From: Frankia alni ACN14a
Lineage (GTDB): Bacteria > Actinomycetota > Actinomycetes > Frankiales > Frankiaceae
Reading direction: 5' to 3'
Length of the DNA stretch: 64,000 nt
Assembly: GCF_000058485.1 (NCBI RefSeq)
Contig: NC_008278.1
Coordinates: 2,350,962-2,414,961, forward strand
The notes under the pieces are model-generated. The model was not told where the DNA came from. It saw only the letters and a program-made list of their open reading frames with translations, and searched no databases. Within the stretch, counting starts at the first letter, position 1. Every line of letters begins with the position of its first letter. Made by a program: the position numbers and the translations under genes. Below, one piece after another: positions 28,904-38,978 of the stretch.

Positions 28904-29689
28904 ATGGCGATCGCGGTGACGAGGATCCTGTCGCGACGGCCCGGGGCGCCGGGGCGGGCGCCTTCCCCGGCGGCGGCGTCGGGGACGCGGGCCGAGGCGG
29001 TCGCGGGACGGTCGGGACGGTCGGAACGGCCCGTGACCTGCACGCGGCCGTTGCCGGAGGTCGGCGCCGGGGCGCAGGCCCTCCCCCGGCGCGCCGGCGG
29101 CCTGCCGCACGAGGTGGTCTTCCGGGTCACCGCGGCGAGCCGGTGCACCGCGGTCCGGCAGGTGTGGGTCGAGACCGACGAGCAGGCGGTGCTCGCCGAC
29201 TGGGCGTCGCGGGGGCGGGTCGAGCTGATGGCCGCCCGGCGTCCGTTCGTCCTGGAACTGGACCTTGACGGCCAGGGCGTGCGGCTGGTCGAGCCGATGG
29301 GGCGGGTGCCGGTCGCGGCCTTCGCGGCCGACCGGGCGGGCGGCCGGGTGCGCCTGGCGGACGGCTGCGTGCTGCGGTGGCTCACGCCGACCCGCGGCGC
29401 GTTCGCCAGCGGCCTGGTGGGGCACCGCGAGGTCAACATCATCCGGTTCGCGCTGGACGGGACGGCGCTCGTCGTGGCCCATCCCGACCTGCTCGTCCCG
29501 GAGGTCACCCGGGTGGTCCGGGCGTCGGACGCGGGTCCGGGGGATACCCGTCGGGGGGATGTCCCGGACCCGCGCCTGGGCTGGGTGCCCGACGTGGTGG
29601 CGCTGCTCGTGCTGGCCTGGTTCCTGCGGCTGCTCGAGACCAGCGCCGTCGTGCCGGCTCGCTCGCGTGTTCGAGAGCCGGGTGTTTGA
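28904..29689 (+). CDS. Hypothetical protein with beta-rich core and C-terminal hydrophobic segment
   Basis: A 261-residue protein that I do not recognise. The first 65 residues are low-complexity (Arg, Pro, Ala, Gly). Residues about 70-220 alternate strands and turns (VRLVEPMGRVPVAAFAADRA, GRVRLADGCVLRWLTP, FALDGTALVVAHPDLL), loosely reminiscent of scramblase/LURP-type beta barrels. A hydrophobic segment near the end (VPDVVALLVLAWFLRLL) could be a tail anchor, as in that superfamily, but this is only a structural impression. GTAGGAGGTG upstream of the ATG at 28904 is a strong ribosome site. It is divergent from the SARP gene with a TCAAC repeat pair in between, so it may be a regulator target. 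Confidence 0.7.
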   Translation: MAIAVTRILSRRPGAPGRAPSPAAASGTRAEAVAGRSGRSERPVTCTRPLPEVGAGAQALPRRAGGLPHEVVFRVTAASRCTAVRQVWVETDEQAVLADWASRGRVELMAARRPFVLELDLDGQGVRLVEPMGRVPVAAFAADRAGGRVRLADGCVLRWLTPTRGAFASGLVGHREVNIIRFALDGTALVVAHPDLLVPEVTRVVRASDAGPGDTRRGDVPDPRLGWVPDVVALLVLAWFLRLLETSAVVPARSRVREPGV

Positions 29690-29723
29690 CGGGCCGGCCG
29701 GGAGAGGGTTACCTTCCAGGTAT

Positions 29724-29739
29724 TCGAACTTGTGTTCGA
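29724..29739. promoter_or_regulatory. SOS box (LexA operator)
   Basis: TCGAACTTGTGTTCGA is a perfect TCGAAC-N4-GTTCGA palindrome, matching the actinobacterial/Bacillus-type LexA site. It lies 16 bp before the start of the HEPN gene that heads the imuA'-imuB-dnaE2 genes, so this mutagenesis cassette should be induced by DNA damage. Confidence 0.9.
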
Positions 29740-29754
29740 CGCCGGGAGGGTGTC

Positions 29755-30327
29755 ATGGCCGTCGTGAGTCGACCTGTCAGCGGCGCGGGCCCCGCGGGCG
29801 GAGCCGTCGGGGTGGAGGGTACGTCCGCCGGGCGCGGAGCATCCAGCGGGCCGCCCGGACGGGCCCTGCTGCCCGCGGCGGGGCTGCCCCACCGTTCCCG
29901 GGACGAGCTGCTCGCCGCCGCCCGGCGCGGTCTCGGGGAGGCGGAGTACGCCCCCCGGGCCGGGGAGCGGTACGCCCTGGCTCATCTCGCCGCCCTGCGG
30001 GCCGCCGCCGCCGTGCTGGCGGATCGGGCGCGGCCCCGGCCGGGCCGCCGCGGCCGGCCGGTCAGCGCCTGGTGCCTGCTCGTGCGGGTGGCTCCCGAGC
30101 TCGTCGAATGGGCGGACTTCTTCGCGGCGGGCGCCGGTCGGCGAGCGGCCGCCGAGGCCGGCCTGAACGTGGTGGGCCGCCGCGAGGCCGACGATCTGAT
30201 CCGCCAGGTCGACCAGTTCATCGGCGTCGTCGAGGGCGCGCTGGGGCTGCCGTCCCAGCCGGTGCTCGCCGGCACCGGTCCGGCCGATGTCGTGGCAGCC
30301 GCGGCCGTCCCGCCGCGGCGGGGTTAG
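29755..30327 (+). CDS. SAV_6107-family HEPN domain protein
   Basis: A 190-residue protein. After a low-complexity Gly/Ala N-terminus, residues about 55-170 form an alpha-helical HEPN-type bundle: DELLAAARRGLGEAEYAPRA, YALAHLAALRAAAAVLADRA, and VRVAPELVEWADFFAAGA. The family is typically found beside imuA'/imuB/dnaE2 in actinobacteria. The canonical Rx4-6H RNase motif of toxic HEPN proteins is not obvious, so nuclease activity is not assumed. It is the first gene after the LexA box, with a GGGAGGG ribosome site before the ATG at 29755. The imuA' start is 6 nt after its stop, so cotranscription is nearly certain. A role in the damage-induced mutasome is an inference from this context. Confidence 0.8.
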   Translation: MAVVSRPVSGAGPAGGAVGVEGTSAGRGASSGPPGRALLPAAGLPHRSRDELLAAARRGLGEAEYAPRAGERYALAHLAALRAAAAVLADRARPRPGRRGRPVSAWCLLVRVAPELVEWADFFAAGAGRRAAAEAGLNVVGRREADDLIRQVDQFIGVVEGALGLPSQPVLAGTGPADVVAAAAVPPRRG

Positions 30328-30333
30328 CCGGCC

Positions 30334-31032
30334 GTGGCCGGTCCGGCGGCGTTGGCCGCCCTGCAGGAGGTCGCCCGCGGTGCGCCGCCGCGGGTGGGGG
30401 ACACCGGTGAGCGCCTGCTGCCCGTGGTCTCCACCCTCGCCGCGCTTCTTCCCGAGGCAGGGCTGCGCCGGGGGACGACCATCGTCGTCACCGGGTCCAC
30501 CTCGTTGCTGCTGACCCTGCTGCGTGGGCCCTCCCAGGCGGGTGCGTGGTGCGCGGTGGTGGGTTTCGCCCAGCTCGGAGCGCTCGCCGCCGCCGAAGCG
30601 GGCATCGCGCTGGAACGCCTCGCCCTGGTCCCCGTGCCGGGCCAGCGCTGGCCGGTGGTCGTGGCCGCGCTGCTGGACGCCATGGACGTGGTGGTGGTCC
30701 GCCCGCCGGCCCGGTCCCGCCCGGCGGACGGCCGGCGACTGACCGCGCGGGCGCGCGAGCGCGGCGCCGTCCTGGTCGCCGTGGACGGCTGGGAGGGCGC
30801 CGATCTGCGGGTGGCCGCCGTCGAGCGGCGGTGGGACGGCCTCGGCGCCGGCCATGGCCAGGTGTGCGCACCCAACCTGCTGGTGGAGGTGTCCGGGCGC
30901 GGGGCGGCGCGCCGCCCCCGCCGGGCGTGGCTGGCCGGGGCCGGTGCGCCGCCTGCCGCGGCCCCGCCGGCCGTCGAGGCGGGTGGGACGGTGCCCGCGG
31001 TGGTGCGTGCCCTTCCGGTCGAGGTGGCCTGA
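30334..31032 (+). CDS. ImuA'-like RecA/SulA-fold mutasome protein
   Basis: A 232-residue protein related to actinobacterial ImuA'. It has a degenerate RecA-like core: VVTGSTSLLLTLLRGPSQAG takes the place of the Walker A region but lacks GKS/T, so ATP binding is doubtful. LERLALVPVPGQRWPVVVAA and MDVVVVRPP supply the later strands. In mycobacteria ImuA' works with ImuB and DnaE2 in damage-induced mutagenesis and binds RecA. The GTG at 30334 follows the HEPN stop by 6 nt, and imuB starts 1 nt after its own stop. It belongs to the LexA-controlled operon. The exact boundary of the C-terminal Ala/Pro-rich tail (residues 195-232) is not conserved. Confidence 0.85.
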   Translation: MAGPAALAALQEVARGAPPRVGDTGERLLPVVSTLAALLPEAGLRRGTTIVVTGSTSLLLTLLRGPSQAGAWCAVVGFAQLGALAAAEAGIALERLALVPVPGQRWPVVVAALLDAMDVVVVRPPARSRPADGRRLTARARERGAVLVAVDGWEGADLRVAAVERRWDGLGAGHGQVCAPNLLVEVSGRGAARRPRRAWLAGAGAPPAAAPPAVEAGGTVPAVVRALPVEVA

Positions 31033-31033
31033 C

Positions 31034-32644
31034 ATGCCGGTCCGCATGCTCGCCGTGCACTACCCGGACTGGCCGGCCGTCGCGGCCGGGGTCGCGGCGG
31101 ACCAGCCCGGCGCGGTGCTGGCCGCCGGGCGGGTCGTCGCCGCGACCCCCGCCGCCCGGCGCGCCGGGATCCGCCCGGGGCTGCGCCGCCGGGAGGCGCA
31201 GGCCCGCTGTCCCGAGATCACCCTCGTGCCCGACGACCCCGGCCGCGCCGCCCGGGTCTTCGAGCCGTTGGTCGCCGCGGTGGAGTCGGTGGCCCCCGGC
31301 GTCGAGGTGCGCGGCCCGGGTGACTGCGTCGTCCCGGTACGCGGCGTCGCCCGGTACTTCGGCGGGGTCGAGGCCGCCCTCGCCGAGGTCCGCCGGGCGC
31401 TGACGGCGGCCTGGCCCGCCGCGGTCCGGTCGGCCGGGGCGGTCGGGCCGGCGCCGCGCTGCGGCCTCGGGGTGGCCGACGGGCCGTTCGCGGCCGGGAT
31501 CGCGGCCCGCGGCGAGGCGGTCGTCCCCCTCGGGGGGACCGCGGCCTTCCTCGCCCCGCATCCCGTCGACCTGCTCGGCGACGCCGAGCTCGTCGATCTG
31601 CTCCGCCGGCTGGGACTGGTCACGCTCGGGAGCTTCGCCGCGCTCCCGGCGGCCGACGTCGCCGCCCGGTTCGGGCCGCCCGGAGACTGGGCGCACCGCC
31701 TCGCCCGCGGCGAGGACCCCCGCCCGGTGACCCCGCGCGAGCATCCGGTCGACCTCGGCGTCGTCACGGCGTTCGACCCGCCGGCCGAGCGGGTCGAACA
31801 GGCGGCCTTCGCCGCCCGCCGGCTCGCCGAGCAGGCCCATGATCGGCTCCGCGACCACGGGCTGGCCTGCACCGGGATCCGGATGGAGGCGGAGACCGGC
31901 CACGGGGAACACCATGTGCGGACGTGGCGCCACGACGGCCCGCTCGCGGCCGCGGCCATCACGGACCGCGTCCGCTGGCAGCTCGACGGCTGGCTGGCCG
32001 GTTCGGCCTCGGCCGGCGACGAGGTCGCCCACGCCGCCATGCCGACCCGGCCGCGGGGGGCGGCCGGATCGGGGCCCACGGCCGGGGTGGTCCGGCTCCG
32101 GATCGAACCGGTGGGGCTGGTGCCCGCAGCCGGTCGCCAGCTCGGGCTGTGGGGGGAGCCGGGGGCGGCCGCCGCGCGGGTCGGCCGCGCCCTCACCCGG
32201 GTGCAGGGGCTGCTCGGTCCGGACGCCGTCCTCACCGCGGTGGTCGGCGGTGGCCGCGATCCCGGGGACCGGATCCGCCTGGTGCCCTGGGGAGAACCCC
32301 GGGTGGCCACCGGGCTGGATCGACCCTGGCCCGGGACCCTGCCGGCCCCGGCCCCGACCCTCGTGCACCGACCCCCGCTGGTGGCCAGCGTCCTCGACGA
32401 CGCCGGGGAGCCGGTGGGGGTCAGCGCCCGGTGCACGGTGACCGCGCCGCCCGCGCGGCTGGCGATCGGCGCGGGCTCGCCGATGCCGGTGACCGGCTGG
32501 GCGGGGCCGTGGCCGGTGGACGAGCGCTGGTGGGACGCCGACGCCCGCCGGCGGGCCCGTTTCCAGATCAGCGTCGCCGAGGGGGGCGCCTACCTGCTCG
32601 CCGTCGCGGGCGGGCGGTGGTGGGTGGAGGCGTCCTATGACTGA
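31034..32644 (+). CDS. imuB: ImuB, catalytically inactive Y-family polymerase homologue
   Basis: A 536-residue Y-family polymerase-like protein. The fold is recognisable (MLAVHYPDWPAVAAG start, RRAGIRPGLRRREAQARCPE, VARYFGG), but the metal-binding acids are gone: where DinB has HVDMDAF it has AVHYPDW, and where DinB has SVDEAFLD it has GPGDCVVPV. ImuB proteins act as a scaffold that links the beta clamp, ImuA' and DnaE2. A clamp motif is suggested by QLGLWGEPG (about residue 371). GAGGTGG precedes the ATG at 31034. Its stop overlaps the dnaE2 start by 8 bp, so translation is coupled. Confidence 0.92.
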   Translation: MPVRMLAVHYPDWPAVAAGVAADQPGAVLAAGRVVAATPAARRAGIRPGLRRREAQARCPEITLVPDDPGRAARVFEPLVAAVESVAPGVEVRGPGDCVVPVRGVARYFGGVEAALAEVRRALTAAWPAAVRSAGAVGPAPRCGLGVADGPFAAGIAARGEAVVPLGGTAAFLAPHPVDLLGDAELVDLLRRLGLVTLGSFAALPAADVAARFGPPGDWAHRLARGEDPRPVTPREHPVDLGVVTAFDPPAERVEQAAFAARRLAEQAHDRLRDHGLACTGIRMEAETGHGEHHVRTWRHDGPLAAAAITDRVRWQLDGWLAGSASAGDEVAHAAMPTRPRGAAGSGPTAGVVRLRIEPVGLVPAAGRQLGLWGEPGAAAARVGRALTRVQGLLGPDAVLTAVVGGGRDPGDRIRLVPWGEPRVATGLDRPWPGTLPAPAPTLVHRPPLVASVLDDAGEPVGVSARCTVTAPPARLAIGAGSPMPVTGWAGPWPVDERWWDADARRRARFQISVAEGGAYLLAVAGGRWWVEASYD

Positions 32645-35600
32645 ATCGGCGGCGGCCGGCCTGGCGGGCGGGGACCGAGGACGGGACGCGTCGGTTCGCA
32701 CCGGTCAGCCCGGCGACGGCGGGGACAGCCCGGCCTGGTCGCGCAAGCGGGCCCCCTACCGGCCGCGAGCGGGGCTGCGGGCCGCCTCGGCCGCGGCCGT
32801 CCCCTACGCCGAGCTGCACTGTCATTCCGCGTTCAGCTTCCTCGACGGCGCGAGCCAGCCGGAGGACCTCGTGGAGGAGGCGGTGCGGCTGGGGCTGTCG
32901 GCGCTCGCACTCACCGACCACGACGGGCTCTACGGCGTGGTCCGCTTCGCGGAGGCGGCCCGGGAGGTGGGACTGCGGACCGTCTTCGGGGCGGAGATCT
33001 CGCTCGGGGCGCGGGCGGCCCGAGCGGGCGAGACCGATCCCGACGGTGACCACCTGCTCGTCCTCGCCCGTGACCCGGAGGGCTACCGGCGGCTGGCCCG
33101 GCTGCTGTCCGACGCCCACCTGGCCGGGGGGGAGAAGGGCCGGCTGGTGGCCGAGCCCGAGGCCTGCGCCCGGGCGGCCGGCGGGCACTGGCAGGTGCTC
33201 ACCGGATGCCGCAAGGGCACGGTTCCCCGGGCCCTGGCCCGCTCCGGTCCCGCCGCAGCCGGGGCCGCCCTCGCGGAGCTGGCGGAGCTGTTCGGCCGCG
33301 AGAACGTGGCGGTGGAGCTCGCCGACCATGCCCATCCGCTGGACTCGGCCCGCAACGACGCTCTGGCCGAGCTGGCCCGCACCGCGCGGCTTCCCCTGGT
33401 GGCGACCGGCAACGTCCACTACGCCGCGCCCGGCGCGGCCCGGTTGGCGGCGGCGATGGCTGCCGTGCGGGCGCGGCGCAGCCTGGCGGAGATGGACGGC
33501 TGGCTGCCGGCCGCGGGCACCGCGCACCTGCGCTCCGGCGCGGAGATGGCGCAGCGGTTCGCCCGGTTTCCCACCGCGGTGGAGCAGGCGGCCCGCATCG
33601 GTGCCGAGTGCGCCTTCGACCTGCACCTGGTCGCGCCGCGGCTGCCCGACTTCCCGGTTCCCCCGGGGCACACCGAGGCGAGCTGGCTGCGGCTGCTCAC
33701 CATGCAGGGCGCCGCGCGCCGGTACGGCCCAGCGGGACAGGAACGGATCGCCGGTGCCTACGACCAGCTCGCCCACGAGCTGGGGCTGATCGAACAGCTC
33801 GGTTTCCCGGGCTACTTCCTGATCGTCCATGACATCGTCGAGTTCTGCCGCCGGCACCGGATCCTCTGCCAGGGACGGGGCTCGGCGGCGAACTCGGCCG
33901 TCTGTTACGCCCTGGGCATCACCGGGGTGGACGCGGTCTCCTTCGGCCTGCTGTTCGAGCGTTTCCTCGCCCCGGAACGCGACGGGCCGCCCGACATCGA
34001 CCTGGACATCGAATCCGGACGGCGGGAGGAGGTGATCCAGTACGTCTATCGGCGCTACGGGCGGGACCGGGCCGCCCAGGTGGCAAACGTGATCACCTAC
34101 CGGCCGCGGTCGGCGGTGCGGGACGTGGCGCGTGCCCTGGGCTTCTCCGCCGGGCAGCAGGACGCCTGGTCCCGCCAGCTCGACCGGTGGTCCCTCCCCG
34201 CGGCCGGGCCGCCGCCGTCGGGTGACGGCGGCGGCCCGGAACACGACATCCCGCCCGAGGTGACCCAGCTGGCCGACCGGTTGCTCGGATTCCCCCGACA
34301 TCTCGGCATCCACTCCGGCGGCATGGTGATCTGCGACCGCCCGGTCGGGGAGGTCGTCCCGGTGGAGTGGGCCCGGATGCCCGGGCGGACGGTGATCCAG
34401 TGGGACAAGGACGACTGCGCCGCCGCCGGCCTGGTCAAGTTCGACCTGCTCGGGCTCGGCATGCTCTCGATGCTGCACAAGGCGTTCGACCTCATCCGCG
34501 GCCACCACGGCCGCGACCTTGACCTGTCCCTGATCCCGCCGGAGGATCCGGCGGTCTACGACATGCTGTGCGCGGCCGACTCCATCGGGGTGTTCCAGGT
34601 GGAGAGCCGCGCCCAGATGGCCACGCTGCCCCGCCTGCGGCCCCGGCGCTTCTACGACCTGGTGGTCGAGGTGGCGCTGATCCGGCCCGGGCCGATCCAG
34701 GGCGGGTCGGTCCACCCCTACATCCGTCGCCGCAACGGGGCGGAGGAGGTCACCTATCCGCATCCGCTGCTGCGTCGCTCCCTGGCCAAGACCCTGGGTG
34801 TTCCGCTGTTCCAGGAGCAGCTCATGCAGATGGCGATCGACATCGCCGGGTTCTCGGCGGCGGAGGCCGACGAGCTGCGCCGGGCGATGGGCTCCAAGCG
34901 GTCCGCCGACCGCATCGAACGGCTCCGTGAGCGGCTCTACACGGGGATGGCGGCCAGCGGCATCACCGGCGCGCTGGCCGACGACCTGTTCACCAAGCTG
35001 TCTGCCTTCGCGAACTTCGGGTTTCCCGAGAGCCACTCGGTGAGCTTCGCGTTCCTGGTGTACGCCAGCTCCTGGATCAAGCTCTACTACCCGGCCGCGT
35101 TCTGCGCCGCGTTGCTCAACGCACAGCCGATGGGCTTCTACTCGCCGCAGAGCCTGGTCGCCGACGCCCGCCGCCACGGCGTCGAGGTGCTGCGGCCGGA
35201 CGTCAACGCCTCCGCGGTCGGGGCGAGTCTGGTCGGCGCGCAACCGCGGGTCCGGCTTGGCCTGTCCGGAGTCCGGCGGGTGGGGGAGAGTCTGGCCCGC
35301 CGCATCGTCGAGACGCGGGTGGCGGGCGGCCCCTACGCCGGCATGGCCGATCTCGTCCGCCGGGTCGGACTGTCCGTCGATCAGGTCGAGGCGCTGGCCA
35401 CCGCGGGGGCGTTCGCCTGCTTCGGGGTGGCGAGGCGCGAGGCGCTGTGGGCGGCCGGCGCCGTGGCACAGGCTCGCCCGGACCGGCTCGACGGGATGGT
35501 CTTCGGCGCCGACGTCGCCGCCGTCGCGCCGTACCTGCCGGGGATGACCGGGGTCGAGGAGTCCGTGGCCGACCTCTGGGCGACGGGGATCACGACCGAG

Positions 35601-35957
35601 GGCTATCCCACCCGGTTCCTCCGGGAGCGGCTCGCCGCCCAGGGGGTGACGGCGGCGGCGGGTCTGCGCGACGCCGAGGCGGGCCGGCGGGTCCTGGTCG
35701 CCGGAATCGTCACCCACCGGCAACGGCCGGCGACGGCGGGCGGCACGACCTTCGTCAACCTGGAGGACGAGACGGGCCTGGTGAACGTGATCTGCTCGCC
35801 CGGGGTCTGGGCGCGCCATCGGATCGTGGCCCGCACGGCGGTGGCCCTCGTCGTCCGCGGTCGCCTCGAACGGGCCGAGGGGGTGACCAATGTGATCGCC
35901 GAGCGGATGTGGCCGCTGCCGGTCGCCGTCACCTCCCGCTCCCGGGACTTCCGATGA
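32637..35957 (+). CDS. dnaE2: Error-prone DNA polymerase III alpha subunit DnaE2
   Basis: A 1106-residue C-family polymerase. An N-terminal PHP domain starts at YAELHCHSAFSFLDG (about residues 57-71), with LALTDHDGLYG next. The palm aspartates are in PDIDLDIESGRREEVI (about 451-466), followed by QVANVITYRPRSAVRD. HSGGMVICDRPVG and FFRQ-like thumb elements fit DnaE2 rather than DnaE1, as do the shorter length and the lack of an extended C-terminus. A helix-hairpin-helix and OB domain occupy residues 900-1100. DnaE2 carries out translesion synthesis together with ImuA' and ImuB. The ATG at 32637 overlaps the imuB stop. The first 50 residues are low-complexity. It is controlled by the LexA site at 29724 through the operon. 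Confidence 0.95.
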   Translation: MTESAAAGLAGGDRGRDASVRTGQPGDGGDSPAWSRKRAPYRPRAGLRAASAAAVPYAELHCHSAFSFLDGASQPEDLVEEAVRLGLSALALTDHDGLYGVVRFAEAAREVGLRTVFGAEISLGARAARAGETDPDGDHLLVLARDPEGYRRLARLLSDAHLAGGEKGRLVAEPEACARAAGGHWQVLTGCRKGTVPRALARSGPAAAGAALAELAELFGRENVAVELADHAHPLDSARNDALAELARTARLPLVATGNVHYAAPGAARLAAAMAAVRARRSLAEMDGWLPAAGTAHLRSGAEMAQRFARFPTAVEQAARIGAECAFDLHLVAPRLPDFPVPPGHTEASWLRLLTMQGAARRYGPAGQERIAGAYDQLAHELGLIEQLGFPGYFLIVHDIVEFCRRHRILCQGRGSAANSAVCYALGITGVDAVSFGLLFERFLAPERDGPPDIDLDIESGRREEVIQYVYRRYGRDRAAQVANVITYRPRSAVRDVARALGFSAGQQDAWSRQLDRWSLPAAGPPPSGDGGGPEHDIPPEVTQLADRLLGFPRHLGIHSGGMVICDRPVGEVVPVEWARMPGRTVIQWDKDDCAAAGLVKFDLLGLGMLSMLHKAFDLIRGHHGRDLDLSLIPPEDPAVYDMLCAADSIGVFQVESRAQMATLPRLRPRRFYDLVVEVALIRPGPIQGGSVHPYIRRRNGAEEVTYPHPLLRRSLAKTLGVPLFQEQLMQMAIDIAGFSAAEADELRRAMGSKRSADRIERLRERLYTGMAASGITGALADDLFTKLSAFANFGFPESHSVSFAFLVYASSWIKLYYPAAFCAALLNAQPMGFYSPQSLVADARRHGVEVLRPDVNASAVGASLVGAQPRVRLGLSGVRRVGESLARRIVETRVAGGPYAGMADLVRRVGLSVDQVEALATAGAFACFGVARREALWAAGAVAQARPDRLDGMVFGADVAAVAPYLPGMTGVEESVADLWATGITTEGYPTRFLRERLAAQGVTAAAGLRDAEAGRRVLVAGIVTHRQRPATAGGTTFVNLEDETGLVNVICSPGVWARHRIVARTAVALVVRGRLERAEGVTNVIAERMWPLPVAVTSRSRDFR

Positions 35958-36047
35958 TCCCTTCGCCTGCTGTTGCACGCAGCGTAGCCGTCGTTCACTA
36001 TCGGTCATCTCCTGGGGTGTTGCGCGTGACGAAGCAGGTGATCATCG

Positions 36048-36203
36048 ATGGCTCTCACCGGTTCTGGGTTCCGGCACCACGGCGCGCATCGTGCGGTGCC
36101 GTCCGCAGTGGCCCGGCGCAACGCCTGGGTGCTACAGATTCTGGGACTGTCGGTCGGCGGGCTCGCGGTCGGCGTCGCCATCGGCCTCGTCGTGGGCCGC
36201 TGA
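36048..36203 (+). CDS. Small single-pass membrane protein (51 aa)
   Basis: A 51-residue open frame starting at ATG 36048 with a CAGGTG about 8 nt upstream. The first half is basic and polar (RHHGAHRAVPSAVARRNAW), the second is one hydrophobic helix (VLQILGLSVGGLAVGVAIG) ending LVVGR. This is the shape of a tail-anchored or small N-in membrane protein. It lies 90 bp after dnaE2 and 53 bp before the methyltransferase, on the same strand, so it could be part of the damage operon. I do not know a family. Codon bias is GC-rich at third positions, supporting that it is real. Confidence 0.6.
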   Translation: MALTGSGFRHHGAHRAVPSAVARRNAWVLQILGLSVGGLAVGVAIGLVVGR

Positions 36204-36256
36204 CCCGCCCGCGCCCGACCGGGCCGACCGGCGCGGGCGGCTGGGGGGAGGAGGCG

Positions 36257-37180
36257 ATGTCGATGGCCGACCATGTCACTGCCGGCGATGTCACTGCCGG
36301 CGATGTCACTGCCGGCGATGTCACCGGCGGCGATCTGCGGCAGGCCGCGATCTGGCACGGCCTGTGGGCGGTCCTGCCCCGCCCGGCGCAGCCAGCCCCG
36401 GCCGACCAGCCCGCGGGCGCCGGGACGGGGGCACCGGGTGAGCCGGGGGTGGGGGCGCGCCGGCCGCTCGTCGTCGACGCCGGCGGAGGCAGCGGTGGCT
36501 TCGCCGTGCCGATCGCGGCTGCCGGCTACCCGGTCATCGTGGTGGATCCCTCGCCCGACGCGCTGGCCGCCCTGCACCGGCGCGTCGCCGAGCGGGGGCT
36601 CGGCGGGCGGGTCACCTCGATGCAGGGGGACCTGCGTGACCTGACCGGCCTCGTCGGCACCGGGCAGGCCGACCTGCTGCTGTGCCATTCGGTGCTCGAT
36701 GTCGTGGACGATCCGCAGACCGCGCTCGCGCAGGCGCTGGGGGTGCTGCGGCCGGGGGGTGCGCTCAGCGTCGTCGTGGCCGGTCTCGCCGCCGCGGTCC
36801 TCGCCCGCGCGCTGGCCGGGCAGTTCGAGGCCGCCCTTGCGGCACTCGTCGAGGACGCGCCCCCCGTGCACCGGCCGTCCGGCGCGGATCACGGCTCGTC
36901 GGAGCTCAGGGAGTCGGCAGCCGGTCGGGCGCCCCGACGGTTCAGCACCGCCGAGGCCGTCGCGCTGGTCCGGGCCGCGGGGGCGGAGGTGCTCGAGGTC
37001 CACGGCGTGCGGATCTTCGCGGATCTGGTGCCGGGGGAGCGCCTGCCCGATGCCCTGGCGGCGCGGCGGCTGCTGCGGCTGGAGCTTGCGGCCGCCGGGC
37101 GCGAGCCGTTTCGGGCGTTGGCGGCGCAGCTGCACGTCCTTGCCCGCAGTCCGGGCGGCACGGGTCCCCATGAACGCTGA
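36257..37180 (+). CDS. SAM-dependent methyltransferase
   Basis: A 307-residue class I methyltransferase. Motif I is LVVDAGGGSGGFAVPIA (about residues 71-87), followed by acidic motif II VIVVDPSPDAL, then QGDLRDL, a LLLCHSVLDVVDD post-I motif and LRPGGALSVVV as motif III. The family (SmtA/UbiE-like, CmoM-like) is broad; the substrate is unknown. GGGGGGAGGAGG before the ATG at 36257 is a strong ribosome site, which rules out the longer upstream frame. A 15-bp tandem repeat adds VTAGD units at residues 7-26. Its end overlaps dinB by 11 bp, so it is translationally coupled to a translesion polymerase gene. Confidence 0.85.
   Translation: MSMADHVTAGDVTAGDVTAGDVTGGDLRQAAIWHGLWAVLPRPAQPAPADQPAGAGTGAPGEPGVGARRPLVVDAGGGSGGFAVPIAAAGYPVIVVDPSPDALAALHRRVAERGLGGRVTSMQGDLRDLTGLVGTGQADLLLCHSVLDVVDDPQTALAQALGVLRPGGALSVVVAGLAAAVLARALAGQFEAALAALVEDAPPVHRPSGADHGSSELRESAAGRAPRRFSTAEAVALVRAAGAEVLEVHGVRIFADLVPGERLPDALAARRLLRLELAAAGREPFRALAAQLHVLARSPGGTGPHER
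36272..36331. repeat. 15-bp in-frame tandem repeat, four units
   Basis: Units of GATGTCACTGCCGGC begin at 36272 (first base C), 36287, 36302 and 36317; the last is degenerate. They encode a VTAGD repeat at the N-terminus of the methyltransferase, ahead of the catalytic fold, so unit number can change without breaking the frame. Confidence 0.8.
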
Positions 37181-38402
37181 GAGCACGATCCTGCACGTCG
37201 ACATGGACGCCTTCTTCGCCTCGGTGGAACTTCGCCGCCGCCCCGAGCTCCGCGGCCGACCCATGATCGTGGCGGGGGGTGAACGCGGGGTGGTGCTGTC
37301 GGCGACCTACGAGGCCCGGGCGTACGGGGTCCGCAGCGCGATGCCGATGGCGCGGGCGCGGCGCCTGTGCCCCACCGCGGCGGTGGTCGCGCCCGACCAC
37401 GCCGCGTACCGGGCGGCCTCGGTCGCGATCATGAAGATCTTCCGGGACGTCACCCCGCTGGTCGCACCGCTGTCGGTCGACGAGGCGTTCCTCGACGTCG
37501 CCGGCGCGCGGGCGCTGTTCGGGTCGGCGCCGCGGATCGCCGCGGACATCCGCCGGCGGGTGGCGGCCGAGCAGGACCTCACCTGCTCCGTCGGCGTCGC
37601 ACCGTCGATGTTCGTCGCCAAGATCGCCTCGACCCGGTGCAAGCCGGACGGACTGGCGGTCATCGCCCCCGACGCGGTGCTTGCCTTCCTGCATCCGCTG
37701 CCGACCGGGGCGTTGTGGGGCGTCGGCCCGCGGGCGGAGGCCGCCCTGACCCGGCTGGGGCTGCACACGATCGGGGACATCGCGGACACTCCGGTGGACA
37801 CGCTGCGCCGGGCGCTCGGAGACGCCGTCGGGACCCACCTGCACCGGCTGTCGTGGGGGATCGACGAACGGCGGGTGGATCCCGCCACCACGGAGGTCAC
37901 CGTCGGCGCCGAGCGCACCTTCGCCACCGACATCACCGAGCCGGCGGCGCTCGCCCGGGAGCTGCTGCGCCTGTCCGGGCGGGTGGCCGGCCAGCTCCGG
38001 CTCCGGCACCGGCGCGCCCGGACCATCTCGGTCAAGGTGCGCTACGGCGACTTCCGGACCGTGACTCGCGCTCGCACGCTGCGTGATGGCACCGACGTTT
38101 CCCAGGCGATCTACGCCACGGCGACGGACCTGGTGACGGATCTGGGTCTGCTCGGCGCCGGCCGGGCCGCCGCCGCCGAGGTCATGGCCGTGCGTCTGCT
38201 GGGGGTGCGGGCGGGCAACCTCGTCGACGCGGGGGGCGCCAGCAAGCAGCTACGGCTCGGAGAACGGCCCGACGGCTGGGCGGAGCTGGACCGGGTGGCC
38301 GACCGGGCGCGTGAGCGGTTCGGTGCGGACGCGGTGGGTCCGGCGGCTCTGCTCGACCACCCCGAGGGACCCCCACCCGCGCCCCCGCCGGGGCCTCCGT
38401 GA
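37170..38402 (+). CDS. dinB: DNA polymerase IV (Y family)
   Basis: A 410-residue translesion polymerase. The catalytic acids are intact: D11 in HVDMDAFFASVE and D104-E105 in LSVDEAFLDV. SVGVAPSMFVAKIASTRCKPDG and WGVGPRAEAALTRLGLHTIGD (thumb helix-hairpin-helix) are typical. The little-finger domain ends with a QLRLG sequence in place of the usual QLxLF clamp motif, and the last 20 residues are Pro-rich. The ATG at 37170 overlaps the methyltransferase stop by 11 bp. It lies near the imuB-dnaE2 genes, but no separate LexA box was found directly upstream, so damage control would depend on read-through. Confidence 0.93.
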   Translation: MNAESTILHVDMDAFFASVELRRRPELRGRPMIVAGGERGVVLSATYEARAYGVRSAMPMARARRLCPTAAVVAPDHAAYRAASVAIMKIFRDVTPLVAPLSVDEAFLDVAGARALFGSAPRIAADIRRRVAAEQDLTCSVGVAPSMFVAKIASTRCKPDGLAVIAPDAVLAFLHPLPTGALWGVGPRAEAALTRLGLHTIGDIADTPVDTLRRALGDAVGTHLHRLSWGIDERRVDPATTEVTVGAERTFATDITEPAALARELLRLSGRVAGQLRLRHRRARTISVKVRYGDFRTVTRARTLRDGTDVSQAIYATATDLVTDLGLLGAGRAAAAEVMAVRLLGVRAGNLVDAGGASKQLRLGERPDGWAELDRVADRARERFGADAVGPAALLDHPEGPPPAPPPGPP

Positions 38403-38570
38403 CGATGGTGTGGCCGGGCATGAACGCCGCTGCTTCGGGCACGGGACACGTGAGGTGATTGGCTCGGTTCCAACCGGCATGACGGGTTGCCTACCGCACC
38501 CGCCCGCGCATGCCTATTCTTGGTTGTCAGGTTCCGTCTGCCGGGCCTGTAGGTCGTGGGAGGAGCGTCG

Positions 38571-38978
38571 ATGCCGCTCTCGGAGAACGAGCAGCGCCTT
38601 CTGGAGCAGATCGAGCGCGCTCTCGTCGAGGATGACCCGAAGTTCGCCAGCACCGTGCGGTCGACGGACCCCCGCACGTACCTGCTGCGCCGGGTGCGCC
38701 GCAGTGCGGTGGTCTTCCTGCTGGGGCTCGCCGTCCTGGTGGTCGGCGTGGTGCTCAACCAGGTGCCGCTCACCGTCATCCTCGGCATCCTCGGGTTCCT
38801 GATGATGCTGTTCGCCGCGCTGCGCGGAGCCGCCGACCTGCGCCGCATCAGCGGGCGCGACACGGGCGGCCGCCGGCCCGGCGGCCGGGGGCGGTCGAAG
38901 GGACGATCCCGGACGAAGGCGCACTTCATGGAGCGGGTCGAGGAGCGCTGGCGGCGCCGCTGGGAGGACCGGCCCTAG
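38571..38978 (+). CDS. DUF3040 membrane protein
   Basis: A 135-residue protein of the actinobacterial DUF3040 family. MPLSENEQRLLEQIERALVE is the family's conserved start, ahead of an acidic helix (DDPKFAS). Two adjacent hydrophobic segments follow (about residues 47-65 and 70-88). The C-terminal 45 residues are strongly basic (GGRRPGGRGRSKGRSRTKA). GGGAGGAG lies 7 nt before the ATG at 38571. Members usually sit near mraZ and the dcw cluster, as here 5.6 kb away, which suggests a link to cell wall or division, but no function is established. It is convergent with the transglutaminase gene. Confidence 0.88.
   Translation: MPLSENEQRLLEQIERALVEDDPKFASTVRSTDPRTYLLRRVRRSAVVFLLGLAVLVVGVVLNQVPLTVILGILGFLMMLFAALRGAADLRRISGRDTGGRRPGGRGRSKGRSRTKAHFMERVEERWRRRWEDRP

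Follow-up and report, generated by a model that had tools for sequence, protein, structure and literature searches.

Background

The closest described system is the mycobacterial ImuA'-ImuB-DnaE2 mutasome, which is made of the same three proteins as the locus analysed here, including an inactive ImuB with a clamp motif, and which has a LexA box; we take its genes to be Rv3395c, Rv3394c and dnaE2. The present locus lies in a 64-kb stretch of the 7,497,934-base genome of Frankia alni ACN14a (the window, whose numbering is used throughout), in which a perfect LexA (SOS) box precedes a run of genes for a HEPN_SAV_6107 protein (hereafter HEPN), ImuA', ImuB, DnaE2, a 51-residue predicted membrane protein, a methyltransferase and DinB (DNA polymerase IV). 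Unlike the mycobacterial genes, those of the window are contiguous and headed by HEPN, and they continue into the membrane protein, the methyltransferase and dinB near the dcw region. In the genus g7, which we infer to be Mycobacterium-like, ImuB was found in four genomes and HEPN_SAV_6107 in none of the five that were searched. The LexA box and the mutasome of the window belong to a known type; what is new, as read from sequence, is that HEPN_SAV_6107 genes bear a LexA box across most families of the class and that the SOS polymerase cassette behind HEPN is swapped. No link between the HEPN_SAV_6107 family and the SOS response was found in the open-licence literature searched.

Mutasome variants with a separate ImuB-C and/or with DnaE2 plus a Y-family polymerase have been described (Timinskas and Venclovas 2019, PMC6511836), and the DUF6504-HEPN-DnaE-DinB cluster of other families reported below has a logic similar to that of these variants, its DnaE grouping with a Streptomyces-like second DnaE; the terms HEPN and methyltransferase are absent from the paper's main text. 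The HEPN family itself is tabled by Anantharaman et al. 2013 (PMC3710099) as the SAV_6107-like HEPN of the HEPN-M family, actinobacterial and without a conserved RNase motif, and the row of the table gives no operon or SOS link. In Corynebacterium glutamicum, the part of PMC5055667 that deals with cg2381 lists this conserved hypothetical gene in the LexA regulon, citing Jochmann 2009, and reports that ciprofloxacin raised cg2381 by 3.86 log2, equal to recA, and lowered mraZ (cg2378) by 1.13.

Organization of the window locus

A pattern search for exact TCGAACN4GTTCGA located the box TCGAACTTGTGTTCGA at 29724-29739 (no strand assigned), which is the sole exact site in the window and one of six in the whole genome, where the same pattern read backwards gave none. 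The HEPN gene (29755-30328, + strand, as are all genes of the run) starts 15 bp 3' of the box behind a good ribosome-binding sequence and encodes 190 residues that match PF18726 with 118.9 bits (cut-off 27.2). It is followed by imuA' (30334-31032; 232 residues), whose product belongs to the Rv3395c family (NF058630 repair_Rv3395c, 179.6 bits, cut-off 65), and by imuB (31034-32644), which encodes an inactive Y-family homologue with an IMS domain. In ImuB the DinB-type acidic residues are missing, SVDEAF of DinB being aligned with RGPGDC, and a QLGLW sequence is present, which we take to be a clamp-type motif. The next gene, dnaE2 (32637-35957), encodes an error-prone C-family polymerase that matches the DnaE2 subfamily (PRK05672, 1551.8 bits, cut-off 939) and groups with ImuB-linked DnaE2. 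An Rv3395c-family ImuA', an ImuB with the clamp motif and without catalytic acids, and a DnaE2 are the components of a mutasome.

Behind dnaE2 lie the genes of the 51-residue protein (36048-36203), which has one C-terminal hydrophobic stretch and no Pfam or NCBIfam match, of a class I S-adenosylmethionine-dependent methyltransferase (36257-37180) and of DinB (37170-38402), the last recognised by domain profiles. From HEPN to DinB the successive gaps are 5, 1, -8, 90, 53 and -11 bp, and the final overlap of methyltransferase and dinB spans 37170-37180. The genome yielded one LexA-domain gene, in whose surrounding locus three boxes with one mismatch lie. As a LexA gene is present and a box stands at the promoter, the run has the features of a LexA (SOS) regulon member. 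The original prediction, made from the letters of the window, that a perfect SOS box precedes HEPN-imuA'-imuB-dnaE2 and that the same strand continues through the membrane protein and the methyltransferase into an overlapping dinB, was borne out at these positions, and LexA control of HEPN-imuA'-imuB-dnaE2 is well supported as a prediction; DNA damage very probably induces the run.

Distribution of HEPN and its LexA box

A sample of 118 genomes from the window's class was searched; PF18726 was present in 86, and the loci of all 86 were fetched. A box was counted when a LexA site with at most one mismatch lay no more than 1.5 kb upstream of the HEPN domain, and the 1.5 kb downstream served as control. 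The results showed that 75 of the 86 genomes, from 30 of the 32 families, have a box upstream of HEPN (64 of them perfect), and the downstream control gave 0 of 86. The 11 box-less loci comprised 7 of 7 in family f18, 2 of 2 in family f4 (within this sample) and two more, G069 and G075, where only 400 and 8 bp of upstream sequence were available. In a draw of 149 genomes from the phylum, there were 14 PF18726 matches, six of them outside the class, one of which scored above the family cut-off. Support for counting HEPN among the companions of the damage response extends far beyond the window, to a box at 75 of 86 HEPN genes.

Two further sets of loci were scanned. In family f4, where HEPN is present in 95 of 101 genomes, 50 of the 95 were taken (the 30 best-scoring and 20 picked, two of the 50 overlapping the set of 86), and within 1.3 kb upstream 37 had a site with at most one mismatch, 10 had a site with two and three had none. 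Among the best 80 named loci (Nocardia, Rhodococcus, Amycolatopsis, Streptomyces and a few relatives; 1 kb upstream), 37 had at most one mismatch (26 perfect), 35 had two at best, namely 30 of Nocardia and five of Streptomyces, and eight had no site. All 40 Nocardia loci in this group of 80 carry a site with one or two mismatches.

It is probable that cg2381 is the C. glutamicum orthologue of HEPN, because C. glutamicum, the positive control of the family search, carries the HEPN family, and because the order HEPN-DUF3040-MraZ, found in five small genomes of f4 (genus label g74, 2.2-2.9 Mb, Corynebacterium-like), agrees with the numbering in which mraZ is cg2378. These five loci differ from that of the window in that no polymerase gene was found beside HEPN and the boxes are imperfect.

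Two polymerase cassettes behind HEPN

The HEPN loci share a recurrent order, consisting of an optional DUF6504 gene, HEPN, a polymerase slot, the methyltransferase, DinB and DUF3040, then a TgpA-type gene on the opposite strand and then mraZ-mraW; the methyltransferase precedes dinB in many versions of the cluster but not in all. The names MraZ, MraW and TgpA, as applied to genes of the window, are our presumption. The slot between HEPN and the dinB end holds either imuA'-imuB-dnaE2, as in the window, or another DnaE with DUF6504 ahead of HEPN. When the 86 loci were classified by their next recognised neighbours, DUF6504-HEPN-slot DnaE was found in 30 genomes of 17 families, HEPN-slot DnaE without a detected DUF6504 in one genome, and HEPN-ImuA' in six genomes of two families, five belonging to the window's own family f1 and one (G095) to f37. 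The remaining loci had the methyltransferase (16), DinB (4) or DUF3040 (3) next to HEPN, fell into smaller classes (9), or had no recognised HEPN neighbour (17, some of them short).

Of the 30 DUF6504-HEPN-slot DnaE loci, 22 have DinB and 15 the methyltransferase farther along the stretch that was scanned; several of the others are short. The methyltransferase or dinB stands directly after HEPN, with no cassette between, in 20 of the 86 loci, 13 of which are box-bearing. A third arrangement was seen in three genomes of f31, where HEPN has a box of its own and is closely preceded by imuB-dnaE2; two of these genomes also show imuA', and the contig of the third ends there. Altogether, a same-strand translesion polymerase gene lies near HEPN in at least 54 of 86 genomes and at least 24 of 32 families, which are lower bounds because several loci are only 3 kb long. 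In G020 (L042), one of the 30 DUF6504-HEPN-slot DnaE genomes, the DnaE gene lies about 8 kb downstream of HEPN, and a second perfect LexA box stands directly before this slot-type DnaE.

The slot DnaE had been considered as the replicative DnaE1, first similarity scores being about 400 bits, and this assignment was rejected because two DnaE matches were present in each of the 30 genomes tested (of 118) and because it is separated from DnaE1 in phylogenetic trees. Two trees, of 65 and 80 sequences, were built with FastTree only and drew warnings for long branches (L113) and uneven composition; in them, each of DnaE1, ImuB-linked DnaE2 and slot DnaE was set apart by a branch whose local support was 100 or 99. 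The slot DnaE group also took in the second DnaE of G112, a Streptomyces-like genome, and a DUF6504-linked DnaE of f17, and no box with at most one mismatch was found in the loci of these two genes (L145, L146). From the DinB-like gene beside it, we infer that the second DnaE of G112 is the same gene as S. venezuelae dnaE2, which together with dinP is given as a LexA target with imperfect boxes in PMC9380542.

ImuB was found in 48 and DUF6504 in 51 of the 118 genomes, and the two occurred together in a single genome, G007, which is 6% contaminated (Fisher 1e-15). This near-exclusion fits two alternative mutasomes. When DUF6504 was compared with 25,628 open reading frames, its best match outside the family was an ImuB C-terminus, with an E value of 0.32 and an hhalign probability of 2%, which is only suggestive of DUF6504 being an ImuB-C.

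A probable conserved-head SOS cluster

From the presence of a box with HEPN across families and of alternative cassettes behind it, we consider, with a probability of about 0.6, that the window holds one form of a widely distributed SOS cluster of actinobacteria, situated near the dcw genes, whose HEPN head is conserved and whose polymerase cassettes are interchangeable. Under this explanation, LexA cleavage after damage would derepress the run, and the products would form a mutasome in which the inactive ImuB is the clamp adaptor, accompanied by ImuA', and DnaE2 does the synthesis; read-through would add the methyltransferase and DinB, and the 51-residue protein would be a lineage-specific addition. 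Most speculatively, HEPN may be a non-nucleolytic helical adaptor or an RNA- or nucleotide-binding SOS factor, which would work beside whichever translesion polymerase is present without depending on it.

Nocardia, Rhodococcus, Amycolatopsis and Streptomyces belong to the class, and the HEPN family also occurs in Corynebacterium; damage-induced mutagenesis in these bacteria is relevant to drug resistance and strain stability. If HEPN is truly LexA-tagged in 30 of the 32 HEPN-bearing families sampled, the known SOS response there misses a conserved part, and HEPN may be such an overlooked part of the damage response, its box being kept even without polymerase genes. The swap also shows that alternative SOS polymerase cassettes are able to occupy one promoter-bearing site.

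Several observations weigh against the conserved-head cluster. A box with at most one mismatch is lacking before HEPN in all seven genomes of f18, which we take to be Streptomyces-like, and likewise in all 12 Streptomyces loci among the best 80 named ones; 30 of the 40 Nocardia loci of the same group have no better site than one with two mismatches, and a perfect box is lacking in all five g74 genomes (two have one mismatch and three have two). Gene order and numbering, not the sequence, underlie the assignment of cg2381. The region upstream of HEPN is in some families shared with a divergent gene, which might use the same box: a check of 10 loci placed such a gene, presumably YbaK-like, across the box in L061, L066 and L070 (three families), the box being nearer to HEPN than to the divergent gene in L061 and L066. 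The presence of HEPN is uncorrelated with that of ImuB or DUF6504 (Fisher p 0.41, 118 genomes), 13 of the 86 HEPN genomes having neither and 25 genomes having a marker but no HEPN, which makes a dedicated or obligate partnership with the polymerases doubtful. Finally, the 90-bp gap ahead of the membrane protein gene could hold an unrecognised promoter.

The tail genes

This gap (35958-36047) is the starting point of the explanation that the SOS unit ends at dnaE2 and that the membrane protein, the methyltransferase and dinB form a separate unit with its own promoter. In agreement with it, four genomes with HEPN elsewhere have a methyltransferase locus, in one case with dinB, that bears no box with at most one mismatch (L108-L111). 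On the other hand, the methyltransferase or dinB directly follows HEPN in the 20 loci mentioned above, and a scan of 29600-38700 gave neither terminator-like nor sigma-70-like sites, of which shuffled sequences lead one to expect 1.1 and 0.1, respectively; in an actinobacterium this is weak evidence. We regard a separate tail unit as quite conceivable and lean against it.

Matches to the 51-residue protein were found in loci of the window's family, namely the window, L035, L036, L038 and L039, with partial matches in L040 and L041; L037 gave no match, and the other loci compared gave nothing below E 0.05. The protein looks lineage-specific and thus, contrary to what had been suggested, is no general companion of the damage response.

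For the methyltransferase, profile and PDB comparisons indicated a CmoM-like protein. Its best PDB sequence match is the structure of CmoM, the tRNA cmo5U methyltransferase (8joz_A, residues 65-300), yet its score against the CmoM equivalog was 78.6 bits (cut-off 366), and a search of the genome for the CmoB family (PF08003) gave no match; its assignment as CmoM was rejected on these two grounds. The structure model is poor outside the core (predicted local distance difference test, pLDDT, 62.7). The gene is missing from the run in the mutasome-bearing G111 and G038; as a companion it is thus recurrent beside dinB but not universal.

A possible connection with the dcw genes

In many loci the cluster stands upstream of the DUF3040/SCO2097-family gene, mraZ and mraW, and DUF3040 directly follows HEPN in 48 of the 50 f4 loci. 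This leads to a second explanation, in which HEPN is an SOS checkpoint or growth-control factor tied to the dcw genes and the polymerases merely share its promoter. The families f13, f17, f19 and f32, in which the HEPN box is kept without a recognised polymerase neighbour, would agree with such a role, but DUF3040, MraZ and MraW were searched for in these HEPN loci and none was found. DivS and ChiZ are membrane division inhibitors, unlike HEPN, which is by model a soluble all-helical domain; moreover, 54 of the 86 genomes keep HEPN with a translesion polymerase. In favour of the checkpoint role, SCO2097 is described as an MreB-associated protein in the Streptomyces literature, and cg2381 and mraZ respond to ciprofloxacin in opposite directions. 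Taking both sides together, we find this explanation doubtful.

In the window, the DUF3040/SCO2097-family gene, for a morphological protein, is the next gene after dinB (38571-38978, + strand; NF058603, 137.1 bits, cut-off 110); we do not claim it as a member of the SOS unit. A different account of the same neighbourhood, that the mutasome was inserted beside unrelated dcw genes with a box of its own, was rejected, since the box precedes HEPN in genomes without a mutasome.

HEPN without a mutasome

These genomes bear on the part of the original prediction that gives three companion proteins, namely HEPN, the methyltransferase and the small membrane protein, a direct role in modifying or localising the mutasome. 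Tight spacing and a shared strand speak for such a role, as does the recurrence of HEPN, and in part of the loci of the methyltransferase, beside two different polymerase cassettes. However, in the window's family imuA', imuB and dnaE2 lie behind HEPN in five of eight genomes (with reading frames checked in the window), and in the other three, G072, G017 and G056, no match to ImuB was found anywhere in the genome, and HEPN is still kept. G072, of the same genus as the window, has the order box-HEPN-membrane protein-methyltransferase-DUF3040; G017 has box (one mismatch)-HEPN-DUF3040; and G056 has box-HEPN-DnaE2 remnant-membrane protein-dinB, the remnant matching just residues 50-82 and 178-530 of the 1106 residues of the window DnaE2. 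As HEPN and its box outlast the mutasome in these genomes, the membrane protein is confined to one family and the methyltransferase is absent from the runs of G111 and G038, we think direct action on the mutasome unlikely.

In G072, two DnaE matches have identical scores (G072:C1:4889363 and 4971161), which suggests a recent duplication of the replicative DnaE in this genome.

Fold and possible role of HEPN

An AlphaFold 2 model of HEPN residues 46-175, calculated from 46 sequences, is a helical bundle with a pLDDT of 90.7. Its best PDB matches are the HEPN proteins 2hsb (template-modelling score, TM, 0.73; E 0.085) and 1wol (TM 0.64; E 0.10), followed by a HEPN toxin of MNT pairs; no match in this search reached E 0.001. 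Both the profile score above the cut-off and the modelled HEPN fold support membership of the HEPN_SAV_6107 family. In an alignment of 86 sequences, R72, W106, W119, R130, A145 and D146 are strongly conserved. The R-x4-6-H RNase motif is absent from the final helix, where we presume it to lie in HEPN RNases; this helix reads READDLL and has no conserved His in the 86 sequences. An R72-x4-H77 pair is conserved in helix 2 (R in 99% and H in 93% of the 86), off the usual catalytic place, and H77 is Tyr in the consensus of alignment A2. Among the scanned window neighbours of HEPN, no nucleotidyltransferase domain was found.

The idea that HEPN arrests damaged cells as an RNase toxin, in the way of the HEPN-MNT toxin-antitoxin pairs, has in its favour the fold and the RNase activity reported for most of the superfamily in PMC3710099, but is judged highly improbable on motif position, given that the table of that survey, the final helix, the helix 2 pair with its H77 replacement and the lack of a nucleotidyltransferase neighbour all speak against it.

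HEPN may have an adaptor or binding role. We tentatively propose, holding it a shade below an even chance, that HEPN_SAV_6107 is a hitherto undescribed core SOS effector of the class, catalytically silent, LexA-controlled in most lineages, used in both mutasome layouts (ImuA'-ImuB-DnaE2 or DUF6504-DnaE-DinB) as a general adaptor, and useful even after loss of the mutasome. Such an adaptor might, for example, bind RNA or nucleotides at stalled forks or tie the polymerase to the replisome. The natural variation, in which box and HEPN are kept and the polymerases are swapped or lost, makes the role of HEPN directly testable by deletion.

Other sites and genes

A degenerate second LexA-like site with two mismatches lies at 29659-29674 (no strand assigned), 65 bp 5' of the main box, and at equal spacing in G072 the corresponding site has one mismatch. 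The open reading frame 5' of the box (28904-29689) is on the same strand as HEPN. Two of the other five exact boxes of the genome were inspected (L001, L004), and both adjoin open reading frames of HNH type by appearance, which we take to be HNH/DUF222-like.

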